In this document: positions 11,555 to 63,543 of the stretch, piece after piece
Layout of the letters: every line of letters begins with the position of its first letter
Numbering within the stretch: the stretch's first letter is position 1
NCBI GenBank assembly: GCA_024281135.1
Contig: JAMXLG010000047.1
Coordinates: 27,621-91,620 of the forward strand
Direction of reading: 5' to 3'
Length of the DNA: 64,000 bases
Source: Vulcanimicrobiia bacterium
GTDB taxonomy: Bacteria > Eremiobacterota > Eremiobacteria > Baltobacterales > Baltobacteraceae
Made by a program: the position numbers and the translations under genes
The notes under the pieces: model-generated
What the model saw: the letters and a program-made list of their open reading frames with translations, nothing else
Databases searched by the model: none
What the model was told of the DNA's origin: nothing

Positions 11555-11575
11555 GTAACCGTAACTGTTCGTAAC
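11555..11575 (+). repeat. Three GTAAC repeats upstream of the sigma-factor cluster
   Basis: GTAAC occurs at 11555, 11561 and 11571 within 21 bases, about 40 bases before the small ORF at 11614. The block TGTAACC resembles the -35 element of some ECF promoters, so autoregulation by the downstream sigma factor is possible, but no convincing -10 could be fixed. Confidence 0.3.
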
Positions 11576-11613
11576 TGCCTCTTGAAGTTCTGGCCCATTA
11601 GAATGTGAGAGCG

Positions 11614-11763
11614 ATGGGTATTCAAATTTTCCCAAATGTAAAAGAAGCCATTAGCGCCGGCTTCACGATCGAATCGCCGATTCCTGATTCGGAGGGATTC
11701 CTCCACGCACGTATTCACACGGCAGCAGGATGGGCTTTAGCCCTCGTTCGTTCGACGAGCTAG
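11614..11763 (+). CDS. Small ORF (49 residues) directly before an ECF sigma factor
   Basis: ATG 11614 follows a GAGA stretch and reads 49 codons to TAG 11761, five bases before the GTG of the sigma-factor gene. The peptide begins MGIQIFPNVKEAISAGFTIE, continues PIPDSEGFLHARIH and ends TAAGWALALVRSTS. Codon use looks like its neighbours, and the tail is amphipathic and hydrophobic. Its position and length suggest a small conserved partner or a translational-coupling leader of the sigma operon. I recognise no family. Confidence 0.5.
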   Translation: MGIQIFPNVKEAISAGFTIESPIPDSEGFLHARIHTAAGWALALVRSTS

Positions 11764-11767
11764 TGTC

Positions 11768-12307
11768 GTGGTTGATTCGGTTCTTACCGACTTCGAGCAG
11801 ATCGTACGCCGCCACGAGCGTAAGTTAACGATGTTTGCGCTCGGCATAGTCCACAATTCCGAGGATGCGGAAGAGGTGGTTCAGGACGCGTTCGTACGCG
11901 CCTATCGTGCTCTGAAGTGCATGCCGGCGGAGAAACGAAACAGCCTTGCGCTGACGCCGTGGCTGTTCGTGATAACGCGGAACGTTGCACTCAATCGATT
12001 CCTTCGAAAACGCCCGCCGCTCGTTTCGCTTGATGCGATCATCGATCGGACTGACTCGCCGTATCGGACCGACCAGACACCGGAGTTCTATGTGGAGCAG
12101 CACGAAAATCGTGAGCTGGTTGAGGCGGCAATTAGCGAAGTGCCGGCGCATCTCCGACCTGCTGCTAGGATGCGGTTTCTACATGGATTGAAAATCATGG
12201 AGATCGCCCAACGCCTCAGGCAGCCCGTAGGCACCGTAAAGTCGCATGTCCATCGCGCCACGCTTATCATGCGCCGACGCTTACAACCGGACCTCAACGC
12301 CGCGTAA
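11768..12307 (+). CDS. ECF-type RNA polymerase sigma factor
   Basis: 179 residues from GTG 11768. Region 2 is seen in LTMFALGIVHNSEDAEEVVQDAFVRAYRAL (core binding and -10 recognition) with the LTPWLFVITRNVALNRFLRK helix. Region 4 is LRPAARMRFLHGLKIMEIAQ and LRQPVGTVKSHVHRATLIMRRRL, a helix-turn-helix for -35 recognition. There is no sigma region 1 or 3, as usual for extracytoplasmic-function factors. A recognisable zinc-type anti-sigma is absent; the next two small genes are candidates for that role by position only. Confidence 0.93.
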   Translation: MVDSVLTDFEQIVRRHERKLTMFALGIVHNSEDAEEVVQDAFVRAYRALKCMPAEKRNSLALTPWLFVITRNVALNRFLRKRPPLVSLDAIIDRTDSPYRTDQTPEFYVEQHENRELVEAAISEVPAHLRPAARMRFLHGLKIMEIAQRLRQPVGTVKSHVHRATLIMRRRLQPDLNAA

Positions 12308-47371: not shown

Positions 47372-48647
47372 ACGGCGCAACGACCGACAGAATCGAGAGA
47401 AGGCCGACCACGACCGCCGTGGTCCATCCGACGGCGTTCCCGATGACGCCGTTCGTATAGTCGCCCATCACCGATTTGCGGTTGATGATGATCAGCATCA
47501 GGACGAGTTCGAATGGCAGCAGTGCGCCCTGCAAGGCTTGCGCGAAGAGGATCATCTTCAGCAACGGCAGACCGGGAAGTAAAACGAATCCCGCGCCGAT
47601 GATGAGGCCGGCGGCAAAGAGCGTGAAGAACAGAGGCGCTTCCGAAAACTTGCGGTCGACCGCCGCTTCAAAGCCGAGGGCTTCGCAGACGATATAACTC
47701 GTCGAAAGCGGAAGCACCGTCGCCGTGAAGAGTCCCGCGTTGAGGATGCCGAGCGCGAAGATCGTCGACGCGGCCGCTCCGGCGAGCGGTTTTAAGGCGA
47801 CGGCAAAATCCATCGCGTCTTGCGGATTGAGCTTCGCCCCATGTTCGTTCGCCAAGAAAATGGTCGCGGCGTTCGCAACGATCATGAAGCCGGCAAGCGC
47901 GATCGCCAGAATCGATCCGTTGATAACATCGGCTCGCGCCAGCGGCAGGTCTTCCGGCTTCGAACCTTTCTCGACGACTTGAGACTGCAGAAAGAACTGC
48001 ATGTACGGCGAGATCGTCGTGCCGATGACCGTAATGACCATAGCGATCCACCCCGGCGTCTGCCACTGAAAGTGCGGAACCAACGTGCCGGCCGCGACCG
48101 CATGCCAATCCGGGTGCGCGAGCACCGCGGATATGATGTACGTGAGGTAGATCAGCGAAAGGACGACGAACGTTCGCTCGACGACTTTATCGTTAAACTT
48201 CAGAACGAAGAAGAAGACGCATATGAGGGAAACGGGCACTGCGATGTAGCGTGAGATGCCCCAGTTTTCCGCAGCCGCTGCGATGCCGGCGAACTCCGTC
48301 GACGTGATCAGCGTGTTGATCAAGAAAAGCACGAGCATCGCCAAGACCGAGATCTTTACGCCGAAGTTCTCGCGGATGAGCGCCGCAAGTCCCTTGCCGG
48401 TGACGCATCCCATTCGAGTCGACATCTCTTGCACGACGATGAGTGCCACCGCAAGCGGCACCATCACCCACAGAATGTCGTATCCGAATTGAGCGCCCGC
48501 AGACGAATACGTGGCAATACCGCCGACGTCGTTGCCGGCGGAGGCCGTGACGAATCCCGGGCCGAGAACTGCCGCAATAAGCAGCAGCGATCGCCGGAGC
48601 GATCGCCGCCGCTGCGGTTGTGCGGCGACGTAGTCAGCCGCCGACAC
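47346..48647 (-). CDS. Nramp-fold divalent-cation transporter without DPGN/MPH motifs
   Basis: 433 residues, about 11 helices. The first helix reads GPGFVTASAGNDVGGIATYS, where canonical Nramp Mn2+/Fe2+ carriers have DPGN. Helix 6 reads ISPYMQFFLQSQVVEKGS in place of the MPH motif whose methionine selects transition metals. This matches a divergent Nramp branch. The gene overlaps the end of a soluble MgtE-N/CBS protein by 14 bases and lies behind an M-box Mg2+ riboswitch, so Mg2+ is the likely substrate by context. Start GTG 48647 has a GCAGG site; longer frames enter the upstream gene. Confidence 0.88.
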   Translation of the reverse strand: MSAADYVAAQPQRRRSLRRSLLLIAAVLGPGFVTASAGNDVGGIATYSSAGAQFGYDILWVMVPLAVALIVVQEMSTRMGCVTGKGLAALIRENFGVKISVLAMLVLFLINTLITSTEFAGIAAAAENWGISRYIAVPVSLICVFFFVLKFNDKVVERTFVVLSLIYLTYIISAVLAHPDWHAVAAGTLVPHFQWQTPGWIAMVITVIGTTISPYMQFFLQSQVVEKGSKPEDLPLARADVINGSILAIALAGFMIVANAATIFLANEHGAKLNPQDAMDFAVALKPLAGAAASTIFALGILNAGLFTATVLPLSTSYIVCEALGFEAAVDRKFSEAPLFFTLFAAGLIIGAGFVLLPGLPLLKMILFAQALQGALLPFELVLMLIIINRKSVMGDYTNGVIGNAVGWTTAVVVGLLSILSVVAPFIPQLGGG

Positions 48648-49950
48648 TTGCCTGCTGCGGGCGGCGCGTTGCGGTGCGGTGTGTTGTGAACTTGGGTAGA
48701 CGGCGGGCCATGTCCTCAGGCATGATTGCATCGATCGCGTCGTCGACAGTCACGATGCCGAGCATCTTTCCCGACTCGTCGACGATCGGTACCGCGAGTA
48801 AGTCATAACGCGCTATCGTCGCGGCGACTTCTTCCGCCTCAGTGTCCGGGCGAAGCGTGACGAGATCCGAATCCATGATCGCTTCGATCGACTCTTCGGG
48901 ATCGGCGAGCAGCAGCGTTCGCAACGAAAGCGCACCTAGCAGCGTGTCTTCTTTGTCGACGACGTAGAGGTAATAGATGAACTCGGACGTCGGTGCGATC
49001 TCGCGAATCTTCCTGATCGTCGCTTCCGCGGTGCGATGCGGATAAATCCATGTGTAGTCGGTGGTCATCAATCCGCCGGCCGTATCTTCCGCGTATTTGA
49101 CGAGCTGACGTAGCTCGCTCGCCGTGTACTCGTTCATTTCGGCGAGCAGCTCTTGCTGCTGCTCCTCGTCGAGTTCGGAGAGCAAATCGGCCGCGTCGTC
49201 GGAGTCCATCTCTTCTATGATGTCGGCGGCGCGTTCGGTGCCGATATCTTCGATCAGCGAGCGCTGCGTTTCGGGTTCGAGATGCTCGAACGCATCGGCT
49301 GCCGTTTCATCGTCGAGTTGACGAACAACCGCTGCGGCTTCGCGCGCCGAAAGATCTTCGATGATGTCCGCAAGCTCGGAGGGGTGAAGCCGCGAGAGCT
49401 TGCTTTCGGTGACGGAAAGGCTGACTTGCGACGGATTGGTGTCGCGGATCGGGGACACCGAGTCCCACGCAATCATCGAACGGGGAATAGACCGGTAGAT
49501 CGCCGGCGTGAACCGCTTGCCGAACGATTTAAGACCGAGACGGCGGAGCAATCCGCCGATGCCGACGTCCGCCGCAACGACGCGCATAGAATCGCCCGCC
49601 TTTGCGATCTCGATGTCGTTGATGCGCACGACTTTGCGTCCGTCGACGTCGACGATCTGCTTGTCGAGAAGATCTGCGATGAGGTACAGCGCGTCGGCCT
49701 CCGGCGGTGCCGGTTCTTTCGGTGTATAGTTCAGCGCAATGGAACCGTCTGCGTCGATATCGGCGACGGTATCGATCGGCGCGTAGCGGGGACCTTTCGT
49801 CGTCTTGATGACGAGCCCGTCGATCTTCGGAAAAACGTCGTCCGGTTTATTGACGAGAAAATCGCTGACTTTCCCAATCGGAATCTGGTTGACGGTCGCC
49901 TTGCGACCAACTAATTCCGAAACGAATCCCTCGGTAAATCCCACGCTCAT
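48634..49950 (-). CDS. Soluble PRC-barrel / MgtE-N / CBS protein (magnesium sensor-like)
   Basis: 438 residues without membrane helices. An N-terminal PRC-barrel pair (VNQIPIGKVSDFLVNKP about 20; LLDKQIVDVDGRKVVRINDI about 95) is followed by the MgtE intracellular N domain (ELADIIEDLSAREAAAVVRQ, then DIIEEMDSDDAADLLSELDE, about 190-280). Two CBS domains follow (AEDTAGGLMTTDYTWI and DLVTLRPDTEAEEVAATIAR, about 285-410). In MgtE these domains sense Mg2+ and gate the attached channel; here the channel part is missing. ATG 49950 has an AGAGGGGG site. Directly behind an M-box riboswitch and overlapping the Nramp-like gene. Confidence 0.9.
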   Translation of the reverse strand: MSVGFTEGFVSELVGRKATVNQIPIGKVSDFLVNKPDDVFPKIDGLVIKTTKGPRYAPIDTVADIDADGSIALNYTPKEPAPPEADALYLIADLLDKQIVDVDGRKVVRINDIEIAKAGDSMRVVAADVGIGGLLRRLGLKSFGKRFTPAIYRSIPRSMIAWDSVSPIRDTNPSQVSLSVTESKLSRLHPSELADIIEDLSAREAAAVVRQLDDETAADAFEHLEPETQRSLIEDIGTERAADIIEEMDSDDAADLLSELDEEQQQELLAEMNEYTASELRQLVKYAEDTAGGLMTTDYTWIYPHRTAEATIRKIREIAPTSEFIYYLYVVDKEDTLLGALSLRTLLLADPEESIEAIMDSDLVTLRPDTEAEEVAATIARYDLLAVPIVDESGKMLGIVTVDDAIDAIMPEDMARRLPKFTTHRTATRRPQQASVGG

Positions 49951-49967
49951 CACCCCCTCTCGCCATC

Positions 49968-50232: not shown

Positions 50233-51495
50233 TTACGCGACTAAGGCGTTGATCAGGAGTGACGCGAGTTGCCGGGTGCTCAGCTCCGACTGCTGAAGCA
50301 CAGACGTGCCGACCTGCGTGAGGATTTGCTCTTTTACGAGTTCCGTCGTCGCGGCGCCGACGTCGAGATCGCGAATCGAACTCTCGGCCGCCGTTTGATT
50401 GATGTATTGAATCGAAGCGTCGTTCGCAGCTTCAGATAGCGAGACGATTTGCGCACCGATCTCCGCGCGCTGTCCAACGATCTTGTCGAGCCCGTAGTCG
50501 ATTTTTGCTTCCGCGGCTTGATTTGCGAGGACGTCGCCGACAACGATTTGATTGACGCCGAGTTCTTGAGCGCTCACCGATCCGATTGAGACGGAAAGCG
50601 TTGTGCCTTCATTCGTTCCGGTGTTGACCTCGAGGGCATGCCCCGTACTCGCTTGTTGCGCGGGAACCGAAACGACGATGGCTTCTTGTCCGACATCGTT
50701 GACGCTCAGTCCATTGAACGCGATTTGGAACACCGGATTGCCGGCTTGATCCGTAAAGGTATACGGCGCTGAGCCGGGGCCATACTCGTTGAAGAAGTTT
50801 TGTCCCTGAGGTACAGCTCCAGGCGTTACGTGAAGTACGTCGACTTCGTTAGGTCCGTTCGGATCGGGGCTTTCGACTTTAACGGTGACTTGCAACAGAT
50901 TCGTCGACGCATCGTACGAATCGACGGAGAACGAAAATTCGGTTTGTTCGTTGGCTGATATCTGCGTGCCGCCGGGGTTCGGCGTGAGATTGTCGATCAA
51001 CGGACTTCCAGCGCCTGGGCCAACCTGCGGATTTTGAACGTAGAGGAACTGCGCCGGCTGATACTGGGTCGACGATAAACTGCCGTCGAGTAGTTTCAGA
51101 CCGTTGAAATTGGTATTCGAGGAAATGCGGTTGATCTCGAGTGTGAGCTGATCGATTTCGGTTTGGATTGCGGCCAGATTTTCGGGTGAGTTCAAGTCCG
51201 AGTTCGCCTCCACTACGAGACTTCTCATCCGTTGGAGTGCCTGCGTTACGGAAGACATCGCGCCCTCCGCTACCGTGAGCGCATTGCTCGCAGTCTGCAC
51301 GTTAGTAATGCCTTGCTGGAGACCGCTACTAACAGTGTGCAGAGATTCGGCAATGGCGAGACCGCTAGGATCATCGGCGGCGGACGTGATGCGCAGTCCG
51401 GTGGACAGTTTGGTAGTGAGGCTTTCCAATGCGGACTGGTTCCTGTCCATGTTGTACAGGATTGAGTCGAAGCTATCGGAGAGCCCGAGGCGCAT
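50233..51495 (-). CDS. Flagellin
   Basis: 420 residues. Conserved D0/D1 sequence at the N-terminus (ALESLTTKLSTGLRITSAAD, then DPSGLAIAESLHTVSSGLQQ) and at the C-terminus (VLQQSELSTRQLASLLINAL). The variable centre (about 160-310) is Gly/Asn/Pro-rich and would face the filament surface. Ribosome-binding site GGAGGT ten bases before ATG 51495. No other flagellar gene is in the window. A sigma-28-like promoter lies about 195 bases upstream. Confidence 0.95.
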   Translation of the reverse strand: MRLGLSDSFDSILYNMDRNQSALESLTTKLSTGLRITSAADDPSGLAIAESLHTVSSGLQQGITNVQTASNALTVAEGAMSSVTQALQRMRSLVVEANSDLNSPENLAAIQTEIDQLTLEINRISSNTNFNGLKLLDGSLSSTQYQPAQFLYVQNPQVGPGAGSPLIDNLTPNPGGTQISANEQTEFSFSVDSYDASTNLLQVTVKVESPDPNGPNEVDVLHVTPGAVPQGQNFFNEYGPGSAPYTFTDQAGNPVFQIAFNGLSVNDVGQEAIVVSVPAQQASTGHALEVNTGTNEGTTLSVSIGSVSAQELGVNQIVVGDVLANQAAEAKIDYGLDKIVGQRAEIGAQIVSLSEAANDASIQYINQTAAESSIRDLDVGAATTELVKEQILTQVGTSVLQQSELSTRQLASLLINALVA

Positions 51496-51776: not shown

Positions 51777-54700
51777 ATGGGTAGGCCATTGCAGGTCCTT
51801 GGCCTGCTTCTCATGCTCTCGTCTCTTTGCGGCTTGTTGCTCCTCGGTGAGGGCGCGGGCCTCATCGCATTTGCTGACCCGTGCGTTCCGGATGGCGTGA
51901 GCCCGGCTCCGGCAGGTCCGTCCACCGTCCAAATGACACGCGCTACGCCTCAGCCGGAAAAAGCGCCCGCAAAAGAGTTAGATAGCTACCCGGTGTTCGC
52001 GCCGACGGAGACGCTCGCGACGCCGGCGCCGTCTCCGACACCCGAGGCAACTGCAACTCCGGCGCCCGCTGGAAGCGCATCTCCCTCGCGTGGTCCGGCT
52101 CTCGCACCATGTCCGACGCACCGCCATCATCTCTTCGGTGAAGGTCCGATCGAGGTGTCGGGTAACGGTGGTGTCGATCTCGGAACGCATCGAGCGAGTG
52201 CCGACAGTTACAGCCAACAAGATAATGAAGCGAATCTTTCGATGGCGCTGCATGTCGGCCGCCGGACGGAGCGCTCGTCCATCAGTCTCGATCAAAGCTT
52301 TGGCGCAAATAACGGCGCCTACAATTTATCGCAGCTCAATCTCGTCTATAGTACGCCGCAGTATTATCTGGGTTACGGGATCGTCTCCGACTCGAGCGAT
52401 TCACAGCTCGCAGCTACCACGTTCAATCGCGGCATTACGCTCGGCGTCCCCAAGGGACGCGATGAGGTCGACCTCATTCTCGGGCGTTCGCAAGGTCTCA
52501 ACGGCGAAAGTTACGGCGTCGTCGGACTTCGCCACAACGCGGCGTATCCGCGAGGATTGCTTTTTTCGCAGACGCTCTACGTCGCGCGCGGCGACCAGTC
52601 GCATGCGCGCAATACGACGCTTGATTTTTCCGTAGGTCAGTATAAAGCGGGCGCAACGTATCGCGCTGAAGCCGCTCTGAGCAATACATCTGGTGTGTCG
52701 GGACTCTCCAACGGCACGCGACTTGCATATGAGCTGCACGCAGACTATCTCGGCTCGAACACATCGACGAGCATCGGCTACTTCACGATTCCCGTGGGAT
52801 ATCTCACCCTAGGTTCAGCGTATACGAGCGAAAAGAATTTTTCGTTTACGAACCGCCGGCCGCTCTTTGAGCGTGGCTTACTCACGCTCGATTACGGCGA
52901 TCTCTTCACGACGATCAGCGACACGCAAAGCAAAACACAGCATGAAACCGTGAACCTTACCATGCCATTCGGAAGCATCGTTACGTCGCAAGCGCTGCTC
53001 AACTTCGCGCAGGGAACTTCCGACGGCGTCGATACGAACGAGCGCGATGCGGGGTTGACGCTGAACGAACAGCTGAAGTCGCTCGGGTTGACGCAAACGA
53101 TTCAAGGCAGTCAGCAAATGACGAACGGCGGCGGAACGATTGGCCAAACGCAATATGCCTTTGGAGTAACGCAGCCGGTGTGGCGCGGTTTTCTCATGCT
53201 GGAAACGACACGGACACGAGTTTTTGGCGACGGAACGCTGTCGGCCCAAAATGAGAATGCGATCAACCTTATGGAACCGATCGGACTGAAGACGCAAGTG
53301 TCGTATGGGATCGATTCCTTGCGCATCAATACCGACAGCGGGCTCTCGGGATCACTTACCAATCAATTGACGCAAACGTACTCGGTGACGCGGCGCTTCT
53401 CGCCGCTCGTCGGCGCACGCTTAACGTATACCGTGACGCGTCAGAGCGGGACGCTCGGTGGTGTCGCGCATTCGTTTAACGTCGATATTACCGGACCGCT
53501 CGCGTTTGGCGCAGCGTCGCGCTACTCCGGACGTGTCAATCCGAACCTTCCGGCCACCGTCGAGGGCCACGTTTACTTACAAAACGAGGCCTCGGCCTAC
53601 GGTCTCGTCGGTAACCGCGGCATTTCCAATGTGCTGGTTACGCTCGACGGCGGCGTCACGCAGCGCACGGATGCGACGGGCAACTTCGAATTCCGATTCG
53701 TTCGCCCGGGAGCGCATACGCTAACGATTGCGACCGGGACGCTGCCTCCGGGCGTGATCCCCGATACGGCGACGCAAAGCTTTAGCGTCCAGGGCGGACA
53801 GATCTTCAACGTCGACTTCTCGGCGGGCATGTTTGCCGGCGTGCAAGGGCGCGTTACCGAGAAGCGCGGTGACACAACCGTTCCGGTTGGCGGCATCCAA
53901 TTAACGGTCGACGACCATCAACGTGGCTTCACGGCTTCGGACGGCAGCTATCAGATCGGTCATCTTTCGCCAGGAAAGCACGTCATCGCGATCGTTGCGG
54001 AATCGCTGCCGTCCAATCTCACGGTTCCGGGAACCGGAAAACAAGACATCAACGTCGCCACCGGCAACCTGACGACTCTAGACTGGACGCTCGCGGGCCT
54101 CGGCTCAATCGAAGGCGTTGTGCTCTATACGGCCGACTCGGGCTTCGGCGACCTTTCCGGTGCTAGGAACGTCTATGTCGTTGCTGATCCGGGCGAGCAC
54201 GCGGCGATCACCGATGACGACGGCCATTTCGTAATCGACAATTTGCCCGTCGGGCAGTACACGTTGAGCGACGATCAGGACTCGCTCCCCGACGGACAAG
54301 CCGTCATTCAGGGACCGGACGGGCAGGTCTCGATTCAGGGGAGCGAAGCCGTGCGCGGCGTTACATTTAAAGTAGGGCCGCAGGCCAAGCAAGTTGTCTT
54401 TACGTTCTCCGGTGGCAGCAGTGCCGCGGTACAGGCCAACTTCATTCCCGATCAGGCGCCGCCAGCCGGCGTGACCGAACTGGTTGTCTCCACAAACGCT
54501 AAGGGAATCCGTTCCGTGAGTGCCGCCGGCGACATCGGAACGTTCCCGCTACGTTATGTTGCTTCTCGAAAGGCCTGGATCGCGCGCATCCGTGTGCCAC
54601 AACTTTCGAATGGAGACTATCCCGTACACGTGACCGTCGACGGGGATACAAGCGGTGGTGCCGACGCGTCGCTCACGATCAGTAACGCAATCGCACCGGT

Positions 54701-54941
54701 TATTGCTCATGGCGTGCCGTCCCACCCAAATTCGGGTGAGCCCGTTCGAGTCGTTGCGAAAATCGTCGCCGACGTGGAAGACGGTGACCTCGTCGCATTC
54801 GAGAGTGGCGAGCAGATAAAATTGCCGAAGCCTCGCGGCAATGTCTATGCGTTCACTGTTCGCGTGACGCACGCGCTTCCGTTCCGCGGAATCATCTTCA
54901 CGAAACGAGGGGAACGCATACCCTTCGTCATCCAGCCGTAG
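51777..54941 (+). CDS. Usher-like outer-membrane barrel protein with CnaB-type repeats
   Basis: 1054 residues. Signal peptide (about 1-33), Pro/Thr/Ala-rich spacer (40-110) and a His-rich THRHHLFGEG. A long beta-strand region follows (about 125-590) with alternating aromatic strands such as QYYLGYGIV and LTYTVTRQSG, typical of an outer-membrane barrel. Then come three prealbumin/CnaB-like domains, each with a tdxxGxF and LPxG theme: TDATGNFEFRFVRPGAHTLT, TASDGSYQIGHLSPGKH and TDDDGHFVIDNLPVGQYTL. A final Ig-like region (about 890-1054) closes the protein. Ushers of alternative chaperone-usher systems have this order. It precedes subunit and chaperone genes. Usher identity is inferred. Confidence 0.78.
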   Translation: MGRPLQVLGLLLMLSSLCGLLLLGEGAGLIAFADPCVPDGVSPAPAGPSTVQMTRATPQPEKAPAKELDSYPVFAPTETLATPAPSPTPEATATPAPAGSASPSRGPALAPCPTHRHHLFGEGPIEVSGNGGVDLGTHRASADSYSQQDNEANLSMALHVGRRTERSSISLDQSFGANNGAYNLSQLNLVYSTPQYYLGYGIVSDSSDSQLAATTFNRGITLGVPKGRDEVDLILGRSQGLNGESYGVVGLRHNAAYPRGLLFSQTLYVARGDQSHARNTTLDFSVGQYKAGATYRAEAALSNTSGVSGLSNGTRLAYELHADYLGSNTSTSIGYFTIPVGYLTLGSAYTSEKNFSFTNRRPLFERGLLTLDYGDLFTTISDTQSKTQHETVNLTMPFGSIVTSQALLNFAQGTSDGVDTNERDAGLTLNEQLKSLGLTQTIQGSQQMTNGGGTIGQTQYAFGVTQPVWRGFLMLETTRTRVFGDGTLSAQNENAINLMEPIGLKTQVSYGIDSLRINTDSGLSGSLTNQLTQTYSVTRRFSPLVGARLTYTVTRQSGTLGGVAHSFNVDITGPLAFGAASRYSGRVNPNLPATVEGHVYLQNEASAYGLVGNRGISNVLVTLDGGVTQRTDATGNFEFRFVRPGAHTLTIATGTLPPGVIPDTATQSFSVQGGQIFNVDFSAGMFAGVQGRVTEKRGDTTVPVGGIQLTVDDHQRGFTASDGSYQIGHLSPGKHVIAIVAESLPSNLTVPGTGKQDINVATGNLTTLDWTLAGLGSIEGVVLYTADSGFGDLSGARNVYVVADPGEHAAITDDDGHFVIDNLPVGQYTLSDDQDSLPDGQAVIQGPDGQVSIQGSEAVRGVTFKVGPQAKQVVFTFSGGSSAAVQANFIPDQAPPAGVTELVVSTNAKGIRSVSAAGDIGTFPLRYVASRKAWIARIRVPQLSNGDYPVHVTVDGDTSGGADASLTISNAIAPVIAHGVPSHPNSGEPVRVVAKIVADVEDGDLVAFESGEQIKLPKPRGNVYAFTVRVTHALPFRGIIFTKRGERIPFVIQP

Positions 54942-55013
54942 CGGTTTGCGACTCGCGCTGACTTTTGTCGCCAGACAAGCAGGCGGTGCTTGCTCGTTTG
55001 TCATCGAGCCGTA

Positions 55014-55035
55014 AACTGCCGGTTAGTAGGCAGTT
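55014..55035 (+). terminator. Possible terminator hairpin after the usher-like gene
   Basis: AACTGCC (55014-55020) pairs perfectly with GGCAGTT (55029-55035) over eight bases and is followed by AAGTTT. The T-run is short, so termination would be partial. A TACAAT -10-like hexamer follows at about 55046, which may start a transcript for the subunit genes. Confidence 0.45.
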
Positions 55036-55044
55036 AAGTTTCCG

Positions 55045-55187
55045 GTTACAATGCTGGGTCGTCTCAAGCCCCCGCTTGCTATCTCCGAAGAACGTTATGT
55101 GGGAGCCAGGTCAATGATTGGCCCGCTTCCATCGGACGGCTCGGGTAGCCCGGTCCGTATGCGATTGCAAGAGAAAGGACTCTACAA
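55045..55187 (+). promoter_or_regulatory. Structured leader of the fibre subunit operon
   Basis: After a TACAAT element, a 140-base leader contains a near-palindrome GGTCAAT-g-ATTGGCC (about 55109-55123). It also contains a hairpin from CGGAC (55133) and GGCT to AGCC and GTCCG (55157), ahead of an AGAAAGG ribosome-binding site. It may be a regulatory or mRNA-stabilising leader. I compared it by eye with c-di-GMP and other common riboswitch cores and saw no match. Confidence 0.35.
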
Positions 55188-55958
55188 GTGAAGCGAGCTC
55201 TAGCCTTAGTGGCAATGCTTGCAAGCGCGGCGGCCATGAGCAGCCCGGCGCTGGCAGTTGGCACGCCGCAATACGGTTCAGTCAAACTGGAATGGAACGT
55301 AGCGACCGCAATGACCGCGGTGATCCACAGCAGCTACACGGCAGCGTTTGCATACGCAGCGCCGGCCGCCAATCTCGCGAACCCCACGGGCACGTGCCCG
55401 GCTGCCGGCGGTGCCGGTAACGCGGATCTCACCCTCGATTATGGCACCCTGACGCCGTCGCTTTCGGCCAGCGTGGGTTGCACGTACCTCAACGCCGTCG
55501 GCGCGTCGGTTATCGACAACGATTCGAGCGGCGTGAAAGTGTACGAAGCGCTCGATGCCGCGCTCCCGGCCGGCACCAGCCTCTGCGCCTTCCCGAACCA
55601 AGGTGCAGCGTTTCCGGAAACCCTCGGCGCTTCGATCACGCAATCGACGCGTACGGGCACCGGACCAGCGCCGAGCACGACGTGCGGCACCGCTCCCGGC
55701 GCGACCGTTCCGGTAGCTGCCGGTGGTGCGACGACTGGTACGGCAGGCACCTCCAGCATAGTGGGCGGCACCGGTGAAACTTACCAAAACGCCACGTCGC
55801 CGTACTCGATCGGTGGTCTGCCCTGGATCTCGACCGCGGCCGCGAACGCGACGGTCGGCTACGCCGGTGAAGATCTCCAGCTCGTCCTGAGCAACACGGT
55901 TTCGTCAACGACCACGCAGCAGAGCGCGATCATGACGATCCAGTTCATCCCGAACTAA
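55188..55958 (+). CDS. Secreted fibre subunit 1 (spore-coat-U/pilin-like)
   Basis: 256 residues. A signal peptide ends near ALAVG; the mature start TPQYGSVKLEWNV shares the YGS-K-L-W-x-V motif with the other small subunits. LTLDYGTLTPSLSASVGC resembles the xDFG strand plus Cys of spore-coat-U domains. Several Cys (TGTCPAAG, SVGCTY, TSLCAF, TTCGTA) may pair, and the last strand is SAIMTIQFIPN. Gly/Ala/Thr-rich low-charge composition fits an exported structural polymer. It is the first gene of the subunit operon and has a leader of its own. The role is inferred. Confidence 0.75.
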   Translation: MKRALALVAMLASAAAMSSPALAVGTPQYGSVKLEWNVATAMTAVIHSSYTAAFAYAAPAANLANPTGTCPAAGGAGNADLTLDYGTLTPSLSASVGCTYLNAVGASVIDNDSSGVKVYEALDAALPAGTSLCAFPNQGAAFPETLGASITQSTRTGTGPAPSTTCGTAPGATVPVAAGGATTGTAGTSSIVGGTGETYQNATSPYSIGGLPWISTAAANATVGYAGEDLQLVLSNTVSSTTTQQSAIMTIQFIPN

Positions 55959-55997
55959 GAACCAAGCGTCTAATCTACGAGTCTAGCCGAGCCGAAT

Positions 55998-56795
55998 ATG
56001 TCGGGTGGTATGAAACGTTCCTTGCACGCCGTAGCAGCGGCAATCTTGATGGCTCTCTGCGCGACATATCCGGCCTCAGCTGACCTCTCGCTCGACGTCG
56101 CTCCCGCGAAGCTCGAGTTACAGATCGCCCCGAACACGACGCAAACGTTTCCGATCACGGTACGGAACAGCGGCACAGCGCCGCTCCACATTCAGGTCTC
56201 GTTATCGGACTTCGCACTAACCCCAGGCGGCGATTACATCTTCAGCAAGGCGGGATCCAACCGGTATAGTCTCGCGACATGGATTGGTATCAATCCTCGC
56301 GAGTTTGATATACCAGCAAACACCGTGCAACAGGTGCGTGTAACGCTCAACGTTCCACAAGCCGTAAGCGGTGAGTACTCAGGAATCGTTTTTTTCACGA
56401 CGCGCCCCGAGCGTCACGCCACGCACGGCATCACGTTCGCCGAGCGCGTCGCAGCGAAAATCTATGCCTACACGCCAAGTGCGCTTCGTATCGATGGTGC
56501 CGTCGACGGAATCGCCGTCAAGGAAACAGGGATCGGCGAACGCTTCTTGGTCGGATTCAAAAATCGCGGGAACGCACACCTCTACGTCAACGGAAGAATT
56601 GAGGTGCGCAAAGGTGACCAGGTAGTCGCACGCGTGCCGTTCGCACCTCAACTCCTCGTTGGACGCGGTGAGCGCCGTGTGATCGAAGCCTACGTTACCG
56701 ATAAGCTTCCGCCGGGATCGTATACAGCGCTTGCGCTGCTCGACTTCGGTGGACCGAATCTTGCGGGTGGACAAACAACTTTCACCGTGAAGTAG
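55998..56795 (+). CDS. Periplasmic PapD/DUF916-like chaperone
   Basis: 265 residues. A signal peptide (from ATG 55998 or ATG 56010) ends near PASA. The first Ig domain reads LSLDVAPAKLELQIAPNTTQ, TFPITVRNSGTAPLHIQVSL and WIGINPREFDIPANTVQQVR; the last phrase is the PapD-type strand that precedes donor-strand exchange. The second domain has KNRGNAHLYVNGRIEVRKG. Two-Ig chaperones bind exported subunits until an usher takes them. Its position between subunit 1 and the large adhesin supports this role. Confidence 0.8.
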   Translation: MSGGMKRSLHAVAAAILMALCATYPASADLSLDVAPAKLELQIAPNTTQTFPITVRNSGTAPLHIQVSLSDFALTPGGDYIFSKAGSNRYSLATWIGINPREFDIPANTVQQVRVTLNVPQAVSGEYSGIVFFTTRPERHATHGITFAERVAAKIYAYTPSALRIDGAVDGIAVKETGIGERFLVGFKNRGNAHLYVNGRIEVRKGDQVVARVPFAPQLLVGRGERRVIEAYVTDKLPPGSYTALALLDFGGPNLAGGQTTFTVK

Positions 56796-56833
56796 CGGTG
56801 CTGTAGCGCTAAGGAAGGCGTTGAAAATACAGG

Positions 56834-59800
56834 ATGTTACGTAAGCTTCAGTTGGCTCTCGTACTCCTCGCGATCGTCGGAATGATCGCGGGTGTGTTCG
56901 CTAGCCCCCGCATCGCGGGAGCCGCGACACCACCCGCGCATCCAATCGATGATCCGGTGCCGACGCATCCGAACCCGATCGAGCTCCGTACGCCGCCGCC
57001 GCTTCCCTTTGGTGCATCCCCGACTCCGAGTGCGAGCCCAGTGCCTGGCGCAGGTCCGAATGGTACGTCCGGCAACGGCGCACCGTCAGATATTCCGGCC
57101 GGCATAACGGAAGTGCGCACGTGGTCCGTCAACAAGAGTCTTCCGCGCCCTCAACACATCCCCAAACTCTCGCAGTTTCTCGTGAAGTCGGGCAAGTCGC
57201 GGTACTCCGTACGTCAGGTGATGTCGGGTTCCGCCGCGCGCACCGCCATGAGGGCGATGAGCGCGCACACGGTGCGGCCGATGTCGGCCGATGGAAGCAC
57301 GATTCTGCTAACCGGCGATCAATCGAACTTCTTCGAGAACGACATCACGCTCTCGTACGGACAACAGATTTATGTGCTGTGCGAGAACATGGCGACGACG
57401 GACAGCATCAAGTATTATGTCTATCCTCCCGACGGCAGCGGACCGTATGTAAGCGGTACCGTGGCCGTGAGTGGGACGAGCGGCAACAATACCTGTAACA
57501 ATTATGGGTATTTCAATCTGTCGACGCCGTTTGGCGGCTTCAACAGCGGCACGGTCAACGGAACGGCCTATCCGGGTGTTTGGGTCGTGGCGACGTACGA
57601 TACCACGACTGGTACGCTCACGAGCGAGACGAACATCATCGCGAGTTCAGCGTTCAACTTCACGACGTATGCCGACGTCGCGGAATCGACGCCGTCGCTC
57701 GAGTTCTCGCAAGGCAGCACGATCGCTGTCGGCGCTACCGGTTTGAATCCGAACCACTACTATGCCGTGGGTTGGGTTTATACGTCGGGTGCCGGTCAGC
57801 CGTGTGTCTATTCCGTTCCAACAGTAGGCGCCGGAAAAACGGGCGTATGCTTTACCGGGGCCGCGACCGGCGTTCAGGCGTTCAGCGGGGATTTCGAACA
57901 GTGGTGGAACAGTTCGAGTTCGCCATCGACGAGCGCCGCATCGAGCGGCACGTACGACGTCGAGTTGTATGACACGACGACGTCGGAGATGATCGGGCAT
58001 CAACAAATCTCCATGGAATCGTCGACGGCATCGTGGACGTTGACACCCTATAGCTCCACCGGTGCGACGCCGCCGCCTGGAATGGCGTACAACAATATCT
58101 TTGCAACGGACGGGTTGACGGACAACTCGACGACGGGCTTGACGTATGCGGCAAGCGGTCTCGCCGCATCATCAAACGGTCACCCGGTCTACGTCTCCAT
58201 CGCAAATCCGAACGGCGTGGTTCTGACGAGCCCGAACAACACGGCGGGATATCCGACGCAAAACGCGTTGAGCGTCGCCAATTCAACGTCGCAAGCTGGT
58301 GGCGCAATCTCGAAGCAGATTGCGTTTCCGCTCGATTTCAACGAGCAGATGGCGTACGGCCCAACGCAAAACCCTTTCGCGCCGAACGTCTATAGCGCGC
58401 AGCTCTACGACACCAGCTCGAAGACCGTCATCGGTGCGCAGTCGTTTCAGGTTCTCGCTTACGCGGCCGGCTTCTCATGGGCGGGTGGAACCGTCGTCAA
58501 TGCTGCGCCGGGCACTGGTGTGACCGAAAACGTCACGGTCACGAATACCGGTAATCAGAACTACGGTACATGGAACGGCGATGGCGTCAACGGCGTCGAG
58601 ATTGCGCCGAACGCAAGTTATAACGAGCAGCTCAATCTCGTCAGCACGACGGCTACCGACTCTGCCGGAAACGTCTGGAACGTCTTCAGCGTCGGCAGCG
58701 GTAAGAACGAAATCATCTACGCTGAGCCGGTGAACCTTTCGTCGGGTGCCTCACTGCCTGTCGGCGGAACGCTCTCATTTAATATCAGCATTCAGGTAGC
58801 CAACGGGCAATGTACCTCCTCACCGTGCTATTTCGACACAGCCATTCGTCCTCGCCACGGCGTGGCTTACAGCGGTGTCGACAGCGTTTCGAATGCACTC
58901 GGCATTCTTGCAAACGGCGTTCCGCCGTCTTCGGTTGTCGCGACTGCAACGTGGGCCGTGCAAAGCGAGTCGGCGACCGCGAACATGGCGGCGCGCGTCG
59001 CGGACTTCAACCATCTCGCCTACATTCTCGGAACCGCAAATGCGCCGTCCAGTGATACTTACAAGATCAATCTAACGATCAATAACGCCTCATCGCCCGG
59101 CGGCCACAAGATGATGGATTTGAAGATCGTGATGCCCTCGGTGCTCGACATGAATGCGAGTCCGCCAACGATTGCGTCGTCGCCCGCCGGCACCGGTACC
59201 TGGAAGGTCGTGACAAACTCGGCGAACGCTGCGCTCGGCGGAGCGAACGTCTTTGAGTTAACGTGTAATCCGACCTCACGCGACAGCTGCGGCATCAGTT
59301 CCGGCAGCACCGGCACGTTTACGCTGAGCTTCCCGCTCTTCAGCGGATCGTTCGTCGAACAAGACACCGCGATGACGGCGAACTTCGACGGCGGAGGCAG
59401 CTGCGGCCAGTGTAACGTAACGTCGTACGTTCTCAACGCAACGAACACAACTGTGAACGGCATCGCGGGTCTGACGAATATCGACTCGATGATGCTCGGC
59501 GGATTCTCGCTCAACCCGACGTTGATGTACTCGTCCTTCTCGCCGAACACGGTAGGCACCGGCGTGGCAACGTCGGCAACGCTCGTCTATAACAACACTT
59601 CAACGTCGCAGGATCCGAATCCGGATTACGTGGACCAGGTGAACCTCGTCTTCCCCGCGGCCATCAATCCCGCTAGCATCACCGTGCCGAGCGGCTGGGT
59701 TGCGACGCAGACGAGCACCGACAACTGGCAGATCGCGCTTTGCGCCGCGCCGACGAATGCGACCCCGTGTTCGACGAACGAGACGACTGCGATCGCGCCG

Positions 59801-60946
59801 GGCGGGTCGCTGTCCATGACGATGAACTACAACGCCCCGGGTCCGGCGGCCGGCACGTACAACGTAACGTGGTACGCGACCGGAGCAAACGGTGGTGAGA
59901 ACACGAGCGCGATTACGACTACCGCGAGCATCACGTTCAGTGCGACGTCGGCTTCCGTCGCCTTCACGAAGGTGAACGGTGTTGCGGTTACGAGTGGCGA
60001 GCCTCAAACGGGCACCGACGTCACGACCAACGGCACAACGTTCGTCTACACGATCACGAACAACGGTGCGTCGGCAATTAACTCGGCGTCGATCGTGATT
60101 CCGAACACGACTCGTGGCGGAACAAGCGGTGCGGACGCGACGGGTAGGTATTGGACGATCACGAGTGCACCAACCGTTACAGTTAGTGGCGGTTCTACCG
60201 GAACAGCCGGAACGTGTAGCGGCACCTTGAACGCGGCGCAGTACTCGAGCGCAACCGCTTCGGGCAGCGGCGCGATCAACCTGAGCGGCTGTAACATCGC
60301 AACAAACGGGACGATCACGGTGACCTTCACCGCGCAAACGCCGTACTTGATCGGTAGCGACTTCCTGTTCTCCGCGACCGTGAAGAGCGGCGCGACGCAG
60401 GTCAATGCTCAACCGTCGTACAGCTCGTCGAACGCGATGCTGATCGTGATCAATGGAACGCTGACGATTCTTACGCCGGGCAACGGCTCGGTCAATGCGG
60501 GCAACATGCTCTCGTCAGCGACGGGAAGCGGCGCTAGTCCGTCGACCTCATGTATCGGCTGCGGTGTGACGATCGGAAGCCCGTCGCTGATCGACTTTGG
60601 TGTCTTCTCCGGGACGTTTACCGCTACCGACATCGTCGATGCGAGCGTCATGTCGGACGCAAACTCTCCGAACTCGTGGACGCTGTATATCTCCGCCGGC
60701 ACGAATCCGTCGAATATGCTCTACACGCAGGTTCACAGCGCGAGTTCATCGAGCGCCACGAATCTAACGTACAGCGCCACATCGATGACGCTCGTTCCGA
60801 TAACGAGTCCAGGATTACAACTGACCACGTACACCGGAACAGGGCGACACGCGCCGTCTGACACGGTGCAGAACTTCCAGGTGCAGACCGGCGGCAACAC
60901 GTCGCCACAAAACGTCACGATTACCTACACGTTGGTGTTCAACTAA
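56834..60946 (+). CDS. Large secreted adhesin-like fibre protein
   Basis: 1370 residues. Signal peptide, Pro-rich segment (about 35-75), then a long series of beta domains rich in Thr, Ser, Asn and Gly (for example VTNTGNQNYGTWNGDG and TYVLNATNTTVNGIAG), similar to DUF11/Ig-like repeats. CxxC pairs recur (SCGQCN, CIGCG). The C-terminal 180 residues look like a subunit: SLIDFGVFSGTFTATDIV with the xIDFG strand, and the final strand QNVTITYTLVFN. I read it as a tip or backbone adhesin ending in a polymerising domain. ATG 56834 has an AGG just before it. Confidence 0.78.
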   Translation: MLRKLQLALVLLAIVGMIAGVFASPRIAGAATPPAHPIDDPVPTHPNPIELRTPPPLPFGASPTPSASPVPGAGPNGTSGNGAPSDIPAGITEVRTWSVNKSLPRPQHIPKLSQFLVKSGKSRYSVRQVMSGSAARTAMRAMSAHTVRPMSADGSTILLTGDQSNFFENDITLSYGQQIYVLCENMATTDSIKYYVYPPDGSGPYVSGTVAVSGTSGNNTCNNYGYFNLSTPFGGFNSGTVNGTAYPGVWVVATYDTTTGTLTSETNIIASSAFNFTTYADVAESTPSLEFSQGSTIAVGATGLNPNHYYAVGWVYTSGAGQPCVYSVPTVGAGKTGVCFTGAATGVQAFSGDFEQWWNSSSSPSTSAASSGTYDVELYDTTTSEMIGHQQISMESSTASWTLTPYSSTGATPPPGMAYNNIFATDGLTDNSTTGLTYAASGLAASSNGHPVYVSIANPNGVVLTSPNNTAGYPTQNALSVANSTSQAGGAISKQIAFPLDFNEQMAYGPTQNPFAPNVYSAQLYDTSSKTVIGAQSFQVLAYAAGFSWAGGTVVNAAPGTGVTENVTVTNTGNQNYGTWNGDGVNGVEIAPNASYNEQLNLVSTTATDSAGNVWNVFSVGSGKNEIIYAEPVNLSSGASLPVGGTLSFNISIQVANGQCTSSPCYFDTAIRPRHGVAYSGVDSVSNALGILANGVPPSSVVATATWAVQSESATANMAARVADFNHLAYILGTANAPSSDTYKINLTINNASSPGGHKMMDLKIVMPSVLDMNASPPTIASSPAGTGTWKVVTNSANAALGGANVFELTCNPTSRDSCGISSGSTGTFTLSFPLFSGSFVEQDTAMTANFDGGGSCGQCNVTSYVLNATNTTVNGIAGLTNIDSMMLGGFSLNPTLMYSSFSPNTVGTGVATSATLVYNNTSTSQDPNPDYVDQVNLVFPAAINPASITVPSGWVATQTSTDNWQIALCAAPTNATPCSTNETTAIAPGGSLSMTMNYNAPGPAAGTYNVTWYATGANGGENTSAITTTASITFSATSASVAFTKVNGVAVTSGEPQTGTDVTTNGTTFVYTITNNGASAINSASIVIPNTTRGGTSGADATGRYWTITSAPTVTVSGGSTGTAGTCSGTLNAAQYSSATASGSGAINLSGCNIATNGTITVTFTAQTPYLIGSDFLFSATVKSGATQVNAQPSYSSSNAMLIVINGTLTILTPGNGSVNAGNMLSSATGSGASPSTSCIGCGVTIGSPSLIDFGVFSGTFTATDIVDASVMSDANSPNSWTLYISAGTNPSNMLYTQVHSASSSSATNLTYSATSMTLVPITSPGLQLTTYTGTGRHAPSDTVQNFQVQTGGNTSPQNVTITYTLVFN

Positions 60947-61629
60947 TGCGTGGCCTAAGACGGCTCCCGACCATCGCCTTCCTCGTTGCCGCAACGTACG
61001 TCGCGTTTGCGGGACAGAGCGCCCGCGCTCAGGTCAACTACGGGTCCGCGAAACTCGCATGGACCGTTACGCCGATTATTACGTTGAGCTTGACACCGAA
61101 CTATCAAGCGGGATTTGGCCCGTCCGGCGGTTCAGGTTCAGGTTCGACGCCGGCACCCGGGTCAGGGGCAGTCTTAAACGGCGGTGTCATCGACTTCGGC
61201 AACCAAGTCGTTCAAGGTTATCAGTACATCTACAAGTACGCCGTGCAGGCGGGAGTGCTGACGAACGACGGCGGCGGCTTCACGCTTTACGCGGAAGGTA
61301 CCGACATCAACGACACCACGAACGCAACGACCGTTCCGATCAACCAGATCTTGTATTGGCTCGTTTCAAACCCGGGGAACAGCGAGTACTCCGCGGCAAC
61401 GGCCTTTACGAAGACCTCGTATCCCACGAGCGCGGGTTGCGGTGGCCAGTGTATCAACTACACCGGAAAACCGCCGGCGACTGCAGTCGTGTGGAACTAC
61501 CCGACGTCGACGATGCCGCTGACAAACCATACGGCGACGCAAGGCTACGATTATCAGCTTCGCCTCGGGACCGTCAATAATCCCGATAACTTCAGCGTAT
61601 ACATTACCTACACGGCGGTGGGAAATTGA
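60946..61629 (+). CDS. Secreted fibre subunit 2
   Basis: 227 residues. The signal peptide ends near ARAQ; the mature start VNYGSAKLAWTVTPI repeats the shared motif. GVIDFGNQVVQGY matches the xIDFG strand of the large protein, GCGGQCINYTG is a CxxxC loop, and the last strand is NFSVYITYTAVGN. The ATG shares a base with the stop of the adhesin gene (TAATG). It is likely a minor or adaptor subunit. Confidence 0.76.
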   Translation: MRGLRRLPTIAFLVAATYVAFAGQSARAQVNYGSAKLAWTVTPIITLSLTPNYQAGFGPSGGSGSGSTPAPGSGAVLNGGVIDFGNQVVQGYQYIYKYAVQAGVLTNDGGGFTLYAEGTDINDTTNATTVPINQILYWLVSNPGNSEYSAATAFTKTSYPTSAGCGGQCINYTGKPPATAVVWNYPTSTMPLTNHTATQGYDYQLRLGTVNNPDNFSVYITYTAVGN

Positions 61630-62336
61630 AGAAGCTCGCATTTTTCGTTCTCGTCGTCGTCGCGGTGCTCGTTACCGGGCGCCAAGCCGTTGCGATTCAA
61701 GCGACGCTTGCAACCAAGAACATTAGTGTCACGATCATCGTGACGCCGTCACCGACGCCGATGGCGTACGCACCCGTGAACGGCGCGGGGACGGCGATTG
61801 CTCGCCAATCGATGCCCGTGATGCCGAATGTTGCTTCGATGCTCGCCTACGATCCATTCTCGCTCGGCGACATGGTTGCTCAAACCACGCCGCCACAAGG
61901 CAGCGTCAAAGTACAGTTCACCGTGAAGCCCGACCCCTCGTACCAATATTTTCACCTGACGCCGGTCAATACGACGATGAACGCCGGGTACGGAAGCAAC
62001 ACGTTCACCTGTGTATACATGGTCTTCGGGAAATACGCTACCGCGTGGCAGATCAACGATTGGGCGTACGGTTCGAACACTTCGGGTGGTACCGCCGGAT
62101 TCAACCAGTTTCCGATGTACAACACACCGACCTCGAGCGATCTCAGTTGGCTCGCCGAAGGTGTGACTTCAACGTTTGCGATCTTTTCTAATGCCGGTGC
62201 GCCCGGACAGCTGACGTTCAGTGGAACCGCAGGTCAGACGCGCAACGTCTGCATCGATCTTTCGGTCACCGTGCCGAGCAACGTCGCGGCCGGAACGTAC
62301 AATGCGACGATTAGCTATCGTATGATCCACAGCTAA
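61626..62336 (+). CDS. Secreted fibre subunit 3
   Basis: 236 residues from TTG 61626, overlapping the previous stop (TTGA). A signal peptide (KKLAFFVLVVVAVLVTGRQAVA) precedes a spacer, then TTPPQGSVKVQFTVKPDPSY, which retains a looser form of the shared motif. The end, SNVAAGTYNATISYRMIHS, has the AGTY-x-A-x-I-x-Y pattern of spore-coat-U C-terminal strands. Probably a fibre subunit. The end overlaps the convergent DUF4149 gene by 26 bases. Confidence 0.74.
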   Translation: MKKLAFFVLVVVAVLVTGRQAVAIQATLATKNISVTIIVTPSPTPMAYAPVNGAGTAIARQSMPVMPNVASMLAYDPFSLGDMVAQTTPPQGSVKVQFTVKPDPSYQYFHLTPVNTTMNAGYGSNTFTCVYMVFGKYATAWQINDWAYGSNTSGGTAGFNQFPMYNTPTSSDLSWLAEGVTSTFAIFSNAGAPGQLTFSGTAGQTRNVCIDLSVTVPSNVAAGTYNATISYRMIHS

Positions 62337-62748
62337 GCACAAGCGCGAAGAGCCCAAAGAGAAGCACAATCGAGTAGACGCCGCTGCTTTGACGGTGAAG
62401 CGCATCGTATGCCGCCGTCATCAGCGGCGTCGCTTCCATCCGCGGAACGATTGCTTGCGTTTCAAGGATACCAAAGGCAATCGCAATCGCGATGCAGAGC
62501 ACAATGCTGATCTTACGGCGTGCCGTTTCGCCTTGAATGCCGAGCGTGATCAAGGCTGCTAGAATGCCGATCACGGTGCCGAACGCAGTGACCGCACGCA
62601 CCGACGCCGCGATTGTTGCAGCAAATGCGTGGGTTGGACCGACGTTTGCGAAGGCAATCGGCGCGAAGAGGAACGCGAACCCCGCCATCGCACCTACCCA
62701 CAGTCCGAGCAGCACGATTCGAACGACGTACAAGACCTTGGCAATCAT
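62311..62748 (-). CDS. DUF4149-type small membrane protein
   Basis: 145 residues, four membrane helices (about 5-30, 45-70, 80-100, 120-142). LGLWVGAMAGFAFLFAPIAF resembles the first helix of DUF4149/TMEM205-like proteins. Role unknown. Its ATG is three bases from the divergent GTG of the inositol-phosphatase gene, so the two promoters must lie inside each other's coding regions or the messages are leaderless. Confidence 0.75.
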   Translation of the reverse strand: MIAKVLYVVRIVLLGLWVGAMAGFAFLFAPIAFANVGPTHAFAATIAASVRAVTAFGTVIGILAALITLGIQGETARRKISIVLCIAIAIAFGILETQAIVPRMEATPLMTAAYDALHRQSSGVYSIVLLFGLFALVLSCGSYDS

Positions 62749-62751
62749 AGC

Positions 62752-63543
62752 GTGAGCGATTCCACCATCTACCCTCCCGACCCGTTAACCGTTGCGCTCG
62801 AGGCAGCGCGCGAGGGCGCCGCTGTGCTACTCGATTACGCGCACCGGCCGCTCGAAATCGTCGAGAAGGGACGACGCGCCGACATCGTTACCGCTGCGGA
62901 TCGCGCGAGCGAAGCGGTGATTCTCGGCAAGCTCCGAAGCGCGTTTCCGAAGGCGAGCGTTCTCGCGGAAGAGAGTGGCCGTTACGCAGGCAGTTCTGAC
63001 GAGCGGTGGATCGTCGATCCACTCGACGGCACGACGAACTACGCCCACGGCTACCCGTTGTATTGCATCTCGATTGCCTTCGAACGCGCCGGTGAACTCA
63101 TTGCCGGTGTAGTGTATGCGCCGGCGCTCGATGAGTGTTTTGCTGCCGAACATGGCGCGGGTGCACGTCGCAACGATGCGCCGATGAAGGTCTCGGAGAT
63201 CGATACTCTCGCGCATGCAATGGTGTGTACCGGGTTCCATCCGGCTGATTTTCCTCGCAATGGAAAATACTTCGAGCGCATGTCGGGCTTCGCGCAGGCT
63301 GTTCGACGCGACGGCTCAGCGGCGCTCGATCTCGCAAACACTGCTTGCGGCCGGTTCGACGGATTCTGGGAATGGGACCTCAACCCGTGGGATGTCGCGG
63401 CGGGAACGCTACTGGTGACCGAAGCGGGTGGGCGCGTTACGCGGATAGATGGGACGTCGCCGGCTCTAGACGCGCGCTCGATTCTTGCAACGAACGTAAG
63501 GATTCACGACGAGATGCAGGGCGTTCTCGCGGACGTACCGTAG
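62752..63543 (+). CDS. Inositol-monophosphatase-family phosphatase
   Basis: 263 residues from GTG 62752. Metal-binding glutamates in LAEESGRY, the DPLDGTTNYAHGYP core and the late WDLNPWDVAAGTLLVTEAGG are the three motifs of the Mg2+-dependent, Li+-sensitive phosphatase fold. Substrate may be inositol phosphate, 3'-phosphoadenosine phosphate or a sugar phosphate; the NYAHGYP form favours the inositol phosphatase/SuhB branch. No nearer ATG keeps the N-terminal helix. Confidence 0.9.
   Translation: MSDSTIYPPDPLTVALEAAREGAAVLLDYAHRPLEIVEKGRRADIVTAADRASEAVILGKLRSAFPKASVLAEESGRYAGSSDERWIVDPLDGTTNYAHGYPLYCISIAFERAGELIAGVVYAPALDECFAAEHGAGARRNDAPMKVSEIDTLAHAMVCTGFHPADFPRNGKYFERMSGFAQAVRRDGSAALDLANTACGRFDGFWEWDLNPWDVAAGTLLVTEAGGRVTRIDGTSPALDARSILATNVRIHDEMQGVLADVP

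Follow-up and report, generated by a model that had tools for sequence, protein, structure and literature searches.

We analysed a window of 64,000 nucleotides from a Vulcanimicrobiia bacterium (GenBank assembly GCA_024281135.1, contig JAMXLG010000047.1, forward-strand positions 27,621 to 91,620), in which an earlier note, made from the sequence alone, had proposed an alternative fibre system of chaperone-usher kind. Six genes lie together there, encoding an usher-like protein (USH), a two-Ig chaperone (CHA), three secreted subunits (SUA, SUB and SUC) and a giant secreted protein (GIA), with a flagellin paralogue divergent from them. The features are, in window coordinates:

51777..54941, + strand: USH, usher-like outer-membrane protein, 1054 residues (open reading frame, model, Foldseek)
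52149..53507, + strand: USH residues 125-577, predicted barrel (25 strands of at least 7 residues, 2 short)
53553..54380, + strand: USH residues 593-868, three CnaB/CarboxypepD_reg-like domains (Pfam PF13620)
54429..54938, + strand: USH residues 885-1054, C-terminal beta domains (predicted local distance difference test, pLDDT, 77-93 per 10-residue block of the model)
55188..55958, + strand: SUA, secreted subunit, 256 residues, GTG start (open reading frame, homology to SUB)
55998..56795, + strand: CHA, two-Ig periplasmic chaperone, WxLIP/PapD-like, 265 residues (open reading frame, fold)
56834..60946, + strand: GIA, secreted protein, 1370 residues, possible tip adhesin with a C-terminal subunit-like domain (open reading frame)
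60374..60943, + strand: GIA C-terminal 190 residues (alignment A12), containing the subunit-like domain
60677-60685, + strand: W-x-L in the GIA C-terminus (GIA also ends in YTL)
60946..61629, + strand: SUB, secreted subunit, 227 residues, N-terminal tail ending in W or Y
61626..62336, + strand: SUC, secreted subunit, 236 residues, TTG start (homologues at the corresponding place)
50233..51495, - strand: flagellin paralogue, divergent from USH, possible seventh component (Flagellin_N E 1e-35)

The coordinates of the six open reading frames, which the earlier note had placed in one orientation with overlapping stops and starts, were confirmed on the + strand, with overlaps at two junctions (1 base for GIA/SUB and 4 bases for SUB/SUC). 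All six signal peptides were read by eye. Promoter and terminator scans performed no better than on shuffled sequence (3 found vs 3.4 expected; 7 found vs 11.2 expected).

USH was modelled with AlphaFold2 on alignment A7 of 27 rows (pLDDT 73.8; predicted template modelling score, pTM, 0.46). At this pTM the model has the composition of an usher fold, a barrel of ~24 strands plus C-terminal domains, and a Foldseek search of barrel and following domains against the PDB placed FimD/PapC ushers at ranks 1-11 (E 3.6e-17 to 6e-13). The CnaB-like repeats attributed to the barrel protein were recovered as three CarboxypepD_reg (PF13620) stretches located after the barrel (E 2.6e-14, 53.8 bits vs a cut-off of 32.3). 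No plug-sized insert was found in residues 125-577, and no usher N-terminal domain was seen, residues 13-121 being modelled at pLDDT below 50; the CnaB domains may take the place of the N-terminal domain or plug. The Usher family PF00577 gave no match for the window USH at E<=1, nor for any of the 44 places of this usher in 149 genomes of the phylum. PF00577 ushers do occur in 23 of the 149 genomes, nine of which also hold a USH-type usher, always at a separate place. One database label for USH names it only as a carboxypeptidase-like regulatory-domain protein.

The two-Ig, PapD-like chaperone proposed earlier was borne out by the model of its orthologue at another locus (L025) and by fold matches, with WxLIP/DUF916 as the closest relative. 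In a VIA-align search of the CHA model the best solved match was Enterococcus WxLIP, followed by fimbrial chaperones, and the two kinds fill ranks 1-39; CsuC, FimC and CfaA are among the fold neighbours. At the sequence level, WxLIP_PGBD (PF06030) scored 24.1 bits on the window CHA, under its cut-off of 27.3, and was detected at E<=1 in 34/34 CHA members; the chaperones of genomes G092, G089 and G008 exceed the cut-off. WxLIP_HBD (DUF3324) was found neither for the window CHA at E<=1 nor among the best 25 of 27 families for the 34 members. No hydrophobic C-terminal helix is present in the CHA alignment; CHA ends after the second Ig domain and thus is without the C-terminal transmembrane helix of WxLIP. 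A Lys that is invariant in all 34 alignment rows is, we assume, at the position of PapD Arg8. Database sources already label CHA as PapD-like or "fimbrial biogenesis chaperone". In the control search with PF06030, the WxLIP_PGBD cut-off was also exceeded in Thermotoga maritima, whose cells are wrapped in an outer sheath.

The secreted subunits reported beside the 1370-residue protein are real, conserved reading frames, and SUA is homologous to SUB (hhalign probability 98.4 across 189 columns). SUB also aligned with the last ~140 residues of GIA (probability 81, E 1.2e-5), while SUC and SUB had only 29 residues near the end in common (probability 27). SUB has 347 database relatives at E<=0.001. 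As read from the alignments, one column of the tail that follows the signal peptide holds W or Y in 23/23 SUB and 22/22 SUA rows; in SUB this tail corresponds to residues 306-323 of a CHA-SUB fusion model of L025, where pLDDT is below 50. The bare tail pattern occurred within the first 75 residues in 23/23 SUB, 22/22 SUA, 7/22 SUC and 0/19 GIA rows, a count in which several rows matched a neighbouring stretch and for which the pattern is common elsewhere (24/46 windows in SUB). From sequence, the SUA/SUB tail and the tailless GIA would resemble a donor strand and a tip subunit. GIA had no adhesin family match.

A W-x-L was read from the alignment in 17 of the 19 GIA C-terminus rows. The WxL family PF13731 gave no match at E<=10 to the GIA C-termini (0/19), nor to SUB (0/23), SUA (0/22) or SUC (0/22). 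Identity of the window subunits with WxL proteins was rejected on four grounds: i) Pfam gave no WxL match; ii) PDB profiles gave none, their nearest matches being taken as chance (antibody domains for SUA, E 0.04; ribosomal protein fragments for the GIA C-terminus, E 0.9); iii) hhalign against 11 WxL-type subunits returned probabilities of 1.6, 6.1, 31 and 5.3; iv) none of the PF13731 matches listed for the 149 genomes falls on this locus.

The six-gene set is conserved within Candidatus Eremiobacterota. Scanning species genomes with the chaperone profile, via short conserved peptides, yielded 25 loci (L001-L025), labelled Eremiobacterota, WPS-2 or "bacterium". The set is complete in 16 of them, always co-directional, the outermost gene being cut by the contig in L001 and L017. 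L013 has five genes, with the first subunit undetected and an 823-base space in its place, and the remaining eight (L003, L006, L008, L010, L016, L021, L022 and L024) lie on contigs ending within the cluster; L016 and L022 have 0.8-1.2 kb remaining past the last subunit, with no GIA match in it. SUA was counted in 21/25 loci and GIA in 22/25, and an usher match in every locus whose contig extends past the chaperone (22/25). Gene order, predicted to be conserved, is so in two forms: GIA lies directly 3' of CHA in 12 loci and the window, while a subunit lies there in 13 loci, GIA being last wherever seen.

Over the 149 genomes, strong matches (E about 1e-33 or better, hand-picked from lists) were obtained for the chaperone in 36 genomes, the usher in 41 and SUB in 37, with all three in 35; at E<=0.001 the chaperone profile matched in 45. 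Each of the 36 genomes in which the chaperone matched strongly also has an usher match, and in 33 of them the chaperone match lies 0.81-1.14 kb past that of the usher, the exceptions being G044 (5.5 kb apart) and G066 and G128 (different contigs). Among the named usher and chaperone relatives are Aquilonibacter, Elarobacter and Vulcanimicrobiaceae. A few close relatives carry different labels: Dormibacteraeota, Sulfotelmatobacter and, for SUB, Acidoferrales. The short-peptide scan overlooked some members of the phylum, so absence beyond it is unproved. A cultured member, Vulcanimicrobium alpinus (AP025523), has a Gram-negative wall with an outer membrane (PMC9758169). Pili have been observed on this species.

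Two further arrangements were encountered in these genomes. G127 carries a second, rearranged copy (L054; G127:C11:306000-325000) with two chaperone matches, then GIA, then the usher. Seven genomes (G004, G005, G008, G067, G092, G122 and G127; e.g., G005:C4:1367311) also have, ~18-25 kb away from the usher and on its contig, open reading frames of 711-836 residues whose match to the usher profile is confined to its first CnaB stretch.

A flagellin homologue, divergent and directly upstream of the usher, was present in 21/21 loci with upstream sequence. Across the phylum genomes a Flagellin_N match on the opposite strand, 169-568 bases from the usher, accompanied at least 41 of the 44 usher places, in at least 40 of 41 genomes. 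Among the matches listed, no flagellin adjoins the usher in G044 or in the second G127 copy, and the third such place, in G078, is a 3' fragment, the corresponding 5' fragment having the flagellin. The linked flagellins begin at Flagellin_N model position 6-17, most others at 1-3. In a tree of 17 of the 22 available linked flagellins (window included) and 15 selected others, among them two that are FlgL-like by reading, the linked ones separated from the rest with support 93/86, in 94% of bootstrap trees, below the tool's 95 mark. They form their own group in this tree, apparently distinct from the ordinary flagellins of these genomes. Co-regulation from the shared 281-bp divergent region or a shared structure may account for the link. 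Synteny of the whole neighbourhood was considered as its sole cause; magnesium-transporter, NRAMP and phosphatase-like neighbours are often kept too, but less regularly than the flagellin.

Those neighbours (window 47346-49953 and 62311-63543) comprise a DUF4149 gene and others that we take to be NRAMP-like, MgtE/CBS-like and phosphatase-like; they are syntenic in many loci, and therefore the chromosomal site itself is old.

Elsewhere in the phylum, WxLIP-like chaperones are repeatedly found next to secreted subunits and large proteins that often carry CnaB domains, and at least one such cluster contains true WxL domains. That cluster, L041 (positions 4809-11908, genome G136), holds WxL proteins, a WxLIP-like chaperone whose WxLIP_PGBD score of 27.3 bits equals the printed cut-off, and a 906-residue protein ending in CnaB-like domains; G136 has three PF13731 matches over cut-off, and two of the three subunits scanned singly (of six) pass it (28.8 and 31.9 bits). 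In L042 (G137) an 890-residue CnaB-bearing protein accompanies two subunits and a chaperone that is WxLIP-like at 22.0 bits; the single subunit scanned gave no family match. In L045 (G020) the chaperone shows PGBD and HBD signals, both under cut-off, and is accompanied by subunits and by a large protein spread over two reading frames. WxL scores over cut-off in L041 only among these three; G134 also has such matches (stretches L043 and L044). The chaperones of this type aligned with CHA at an hhalign probability of 97.1 (an unrelated pair gave 1.5). The CnaB region of the L041/L042 large protein aligned with USH at 98.7 over 250 columns, but CnaB domains are widespread, so by itself this alignment argues only weakly for kinship. 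The barrel portion of the large L041, L042 and L045 proteins did not align with USH, their subunits gave no convincing alignment with those of the window (probability 1.6-31), and no giant protein was seen in the stretches examined. The L041 cluster, with its true WxL domains, WxLIP-like chaperone and CnaB-bearing large protein, hints at a link bridging the WxL and chaperone-usher systems.

A second WxLIP/PapD-like chaperone subfamily (L047, L049, L052, L053 and L055) is related to CHA over the full length (probability 99.8). It adjoins small secreted proteins and 696-773-residue proteins without an Usher match, which align with USH across 127 columns only; their genomes are not among the PF00577 matches.

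We consider it probable that the locus represents a distinct lineage of chaperone-usher-type assembly systems, and we infer a fibre as its product. Assembly could proceed as follows: i) Sec would export all six proteins; ii) CHA would lend a strand to each periplasmic subunit, as PapD does to pilins and as is predicted for WxLIP and WxL; iii) USH would take up the chaperone-subunit complexes on its CnaB and C-terminal domains and thread the subunits through its barrel; iv) the conserved, unstructured N-terminal tail of SUA and SUB would be the donor strand for a neighbouring subunit; and v) GIA, tailless and with its subunit-like domain C-terminal, would sit at the tip as an adhesin. Such assembly would yield a surface fibre or a short polymer bearing a tip.

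Three results weigh against this interpretation. The usher topology claimed for USH is supported by the Foldseek ranking, with the reservation that the barrel alone also scores like large porins and does not discriminate. SUA, SUB and SUC gave no pilin or WxL profile match and no fimbrial or spore-coat-U match. In the fused CHA-SUB model of L025 both domains are well folded (mean pLDDT 81.6), but docking is not confident (pTM 0.48; only 6/60 alignment rows paired); SUB itself folds well there, and the fold-search list held chaperone matches only and is silent on the SUB fold. Of the alternative fibre system envisaged in the earlier note, the chaperone-usher-like folds, the conserved order and the CnaB extras stand, while the complex is not confidently docked and the fibre is an extrapolation. 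The WxLIP affinity of the chaperone, the WxL cluster elsewhere in the phylum and the linked flagellin had escaped that note.

The best-surviving alternative, which we regard as unlikely, is that the locus is a diderm counterpart of WxL/WxLIP, in which CHA stays on the subunits and GIA as a non-polymeric surface complex, the barrel serves for export or anchoring alone and no fibre is made. CHA is nearest to WxLIP by both sequence (PF06030 in 34/34 members at E<=1, over cut-off in three genomes) and fold, yet it has no transmembrane helix, and WxLIP_HBD is absent from the best 25 of 27 families. Likewise, L041, L042 and L045 join a WxLIP-like chaperone, a large CnaB protein and WxL-like subunits, and the GIA C-terminal domain with the small subunits mirrors the long/short WxL plan of PMC10599100; however, the usher is present in all loci reaching past the chaperone (22/25) and wherever a genome's chaperone match is strong (36/36), and SUA and SUB keep an N-terminal tail that is conserved and unstructured.

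A classical or archaic chaperone-usher pilus, unseen by profiles through sequence divergence alone, is a good deal less probable. It would account for the folds, which match FimD/PapC and CsuC/FimC/CfaA, but PF00577 detects ushers in 23/149 genomes of this same phylum, always elsewhere than USH in the nine that have both. Moreover, USH departs from the classical domain plan, with three extra CnaB domains and neither an N-terminal domain nor a plug seen, and the subunits lack fimbrial and spore-coat-U matches. That USH is instead a CnaB-decorated large porin or exporter, beside secreted proteins of an unrelated surface layer, is very improbable, given that ushers take ranks 1-11 once the domains following the barrel are included, that the chaperone lies closely behind the usher in 33/36 genomes and that the nearest folds of CHA are donor-strand chaperones.

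Beyond the distinct chaperone-usher-type lineage that we prefer, we put forward tentatively, and with more doubt than belief, that the locus belongs to a separate donor-strand lineage, ancestral to or beside both WxL/WxLIP and chaperone-usher pili, and in Eremiobacterota works with a dedicated flagellin paralogue to give a hybrid surface structure. If the preferred reading is right, the chaperone-usher pathway is wider than its detection profiles and annotation misses its usher throughout the phylum. A common origin would also be suggested for the WxLIP-WxL pairs of Firmicutes and the PapD-pilin pairs, which is directly testable because a WxLIP-WxL structure, 9i25, exists (it was seen among the structure matches). 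The near-invariable flagellin neighbour raises the question of what these bacteria build on their surface. A literature search, with most subscription papers and preprints outside its reach, returned nothing on Eremiobacterota with a pilus and chaperone or with an usher, and nothing since 2020 joining WxL and donor-strand.

Compared with chaperone-usher pili (FimC/FimD of type 1, PapD/PapC, archaic CsuC and class 5 CfaA), the locus shares an usher-size barrel, a two-Ig chaperone, small secreted subunits, a large protein with a C-terminal subunit-like domain and a single transcription direction, and the folds of USH and CHA match by model searches. It differs in that the window proteins have no Pfam Usher, PapD or pilin match, in agreement with the earlier statement that the standard Csu, type 1 and archaic sets are not matched; in that USH has three CnaB domains past the barrel, with no N-terminal domain or plug seen; and in that the 1370-residue GIA stands where a FimH-sized adhesin would. 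With the WxL/WxLIP clusters of Firmicutes (DUF916-DUF3324, WxL domain), it has in common the chaperone nearest in sequence and fold, small subunits beside a large protein whose C-terminus is a subunit-like domain, and the W-x-L of 17/19 GIA C-termini; unlike them it has a predicted outer-membrane barrel, a chaperone without transmembrane helix and subunits without PF13731. The published model (PMC10599100) has a WxLIP hairpin completing the WxL sandwich, which makes the donor-strand idea natural from both sides. L041, L042 and L045 resemble the locus in their WxLIP-like chaperone, similar CnaB triple and accompanying secreted subunits, those of L041 differing in being WxL by Pfam. The second-subfamily loci place a homologous chaperone beside a large protein and small secreted proteins, the large protein being 696-773 residues long and alignable with USH over 127 columns only. 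By profile the window proteins are neither PF00577 ushers, full WxLIP nor WxL, and we therefore file them as of chaperone-usher kind with WxLIP affinity.

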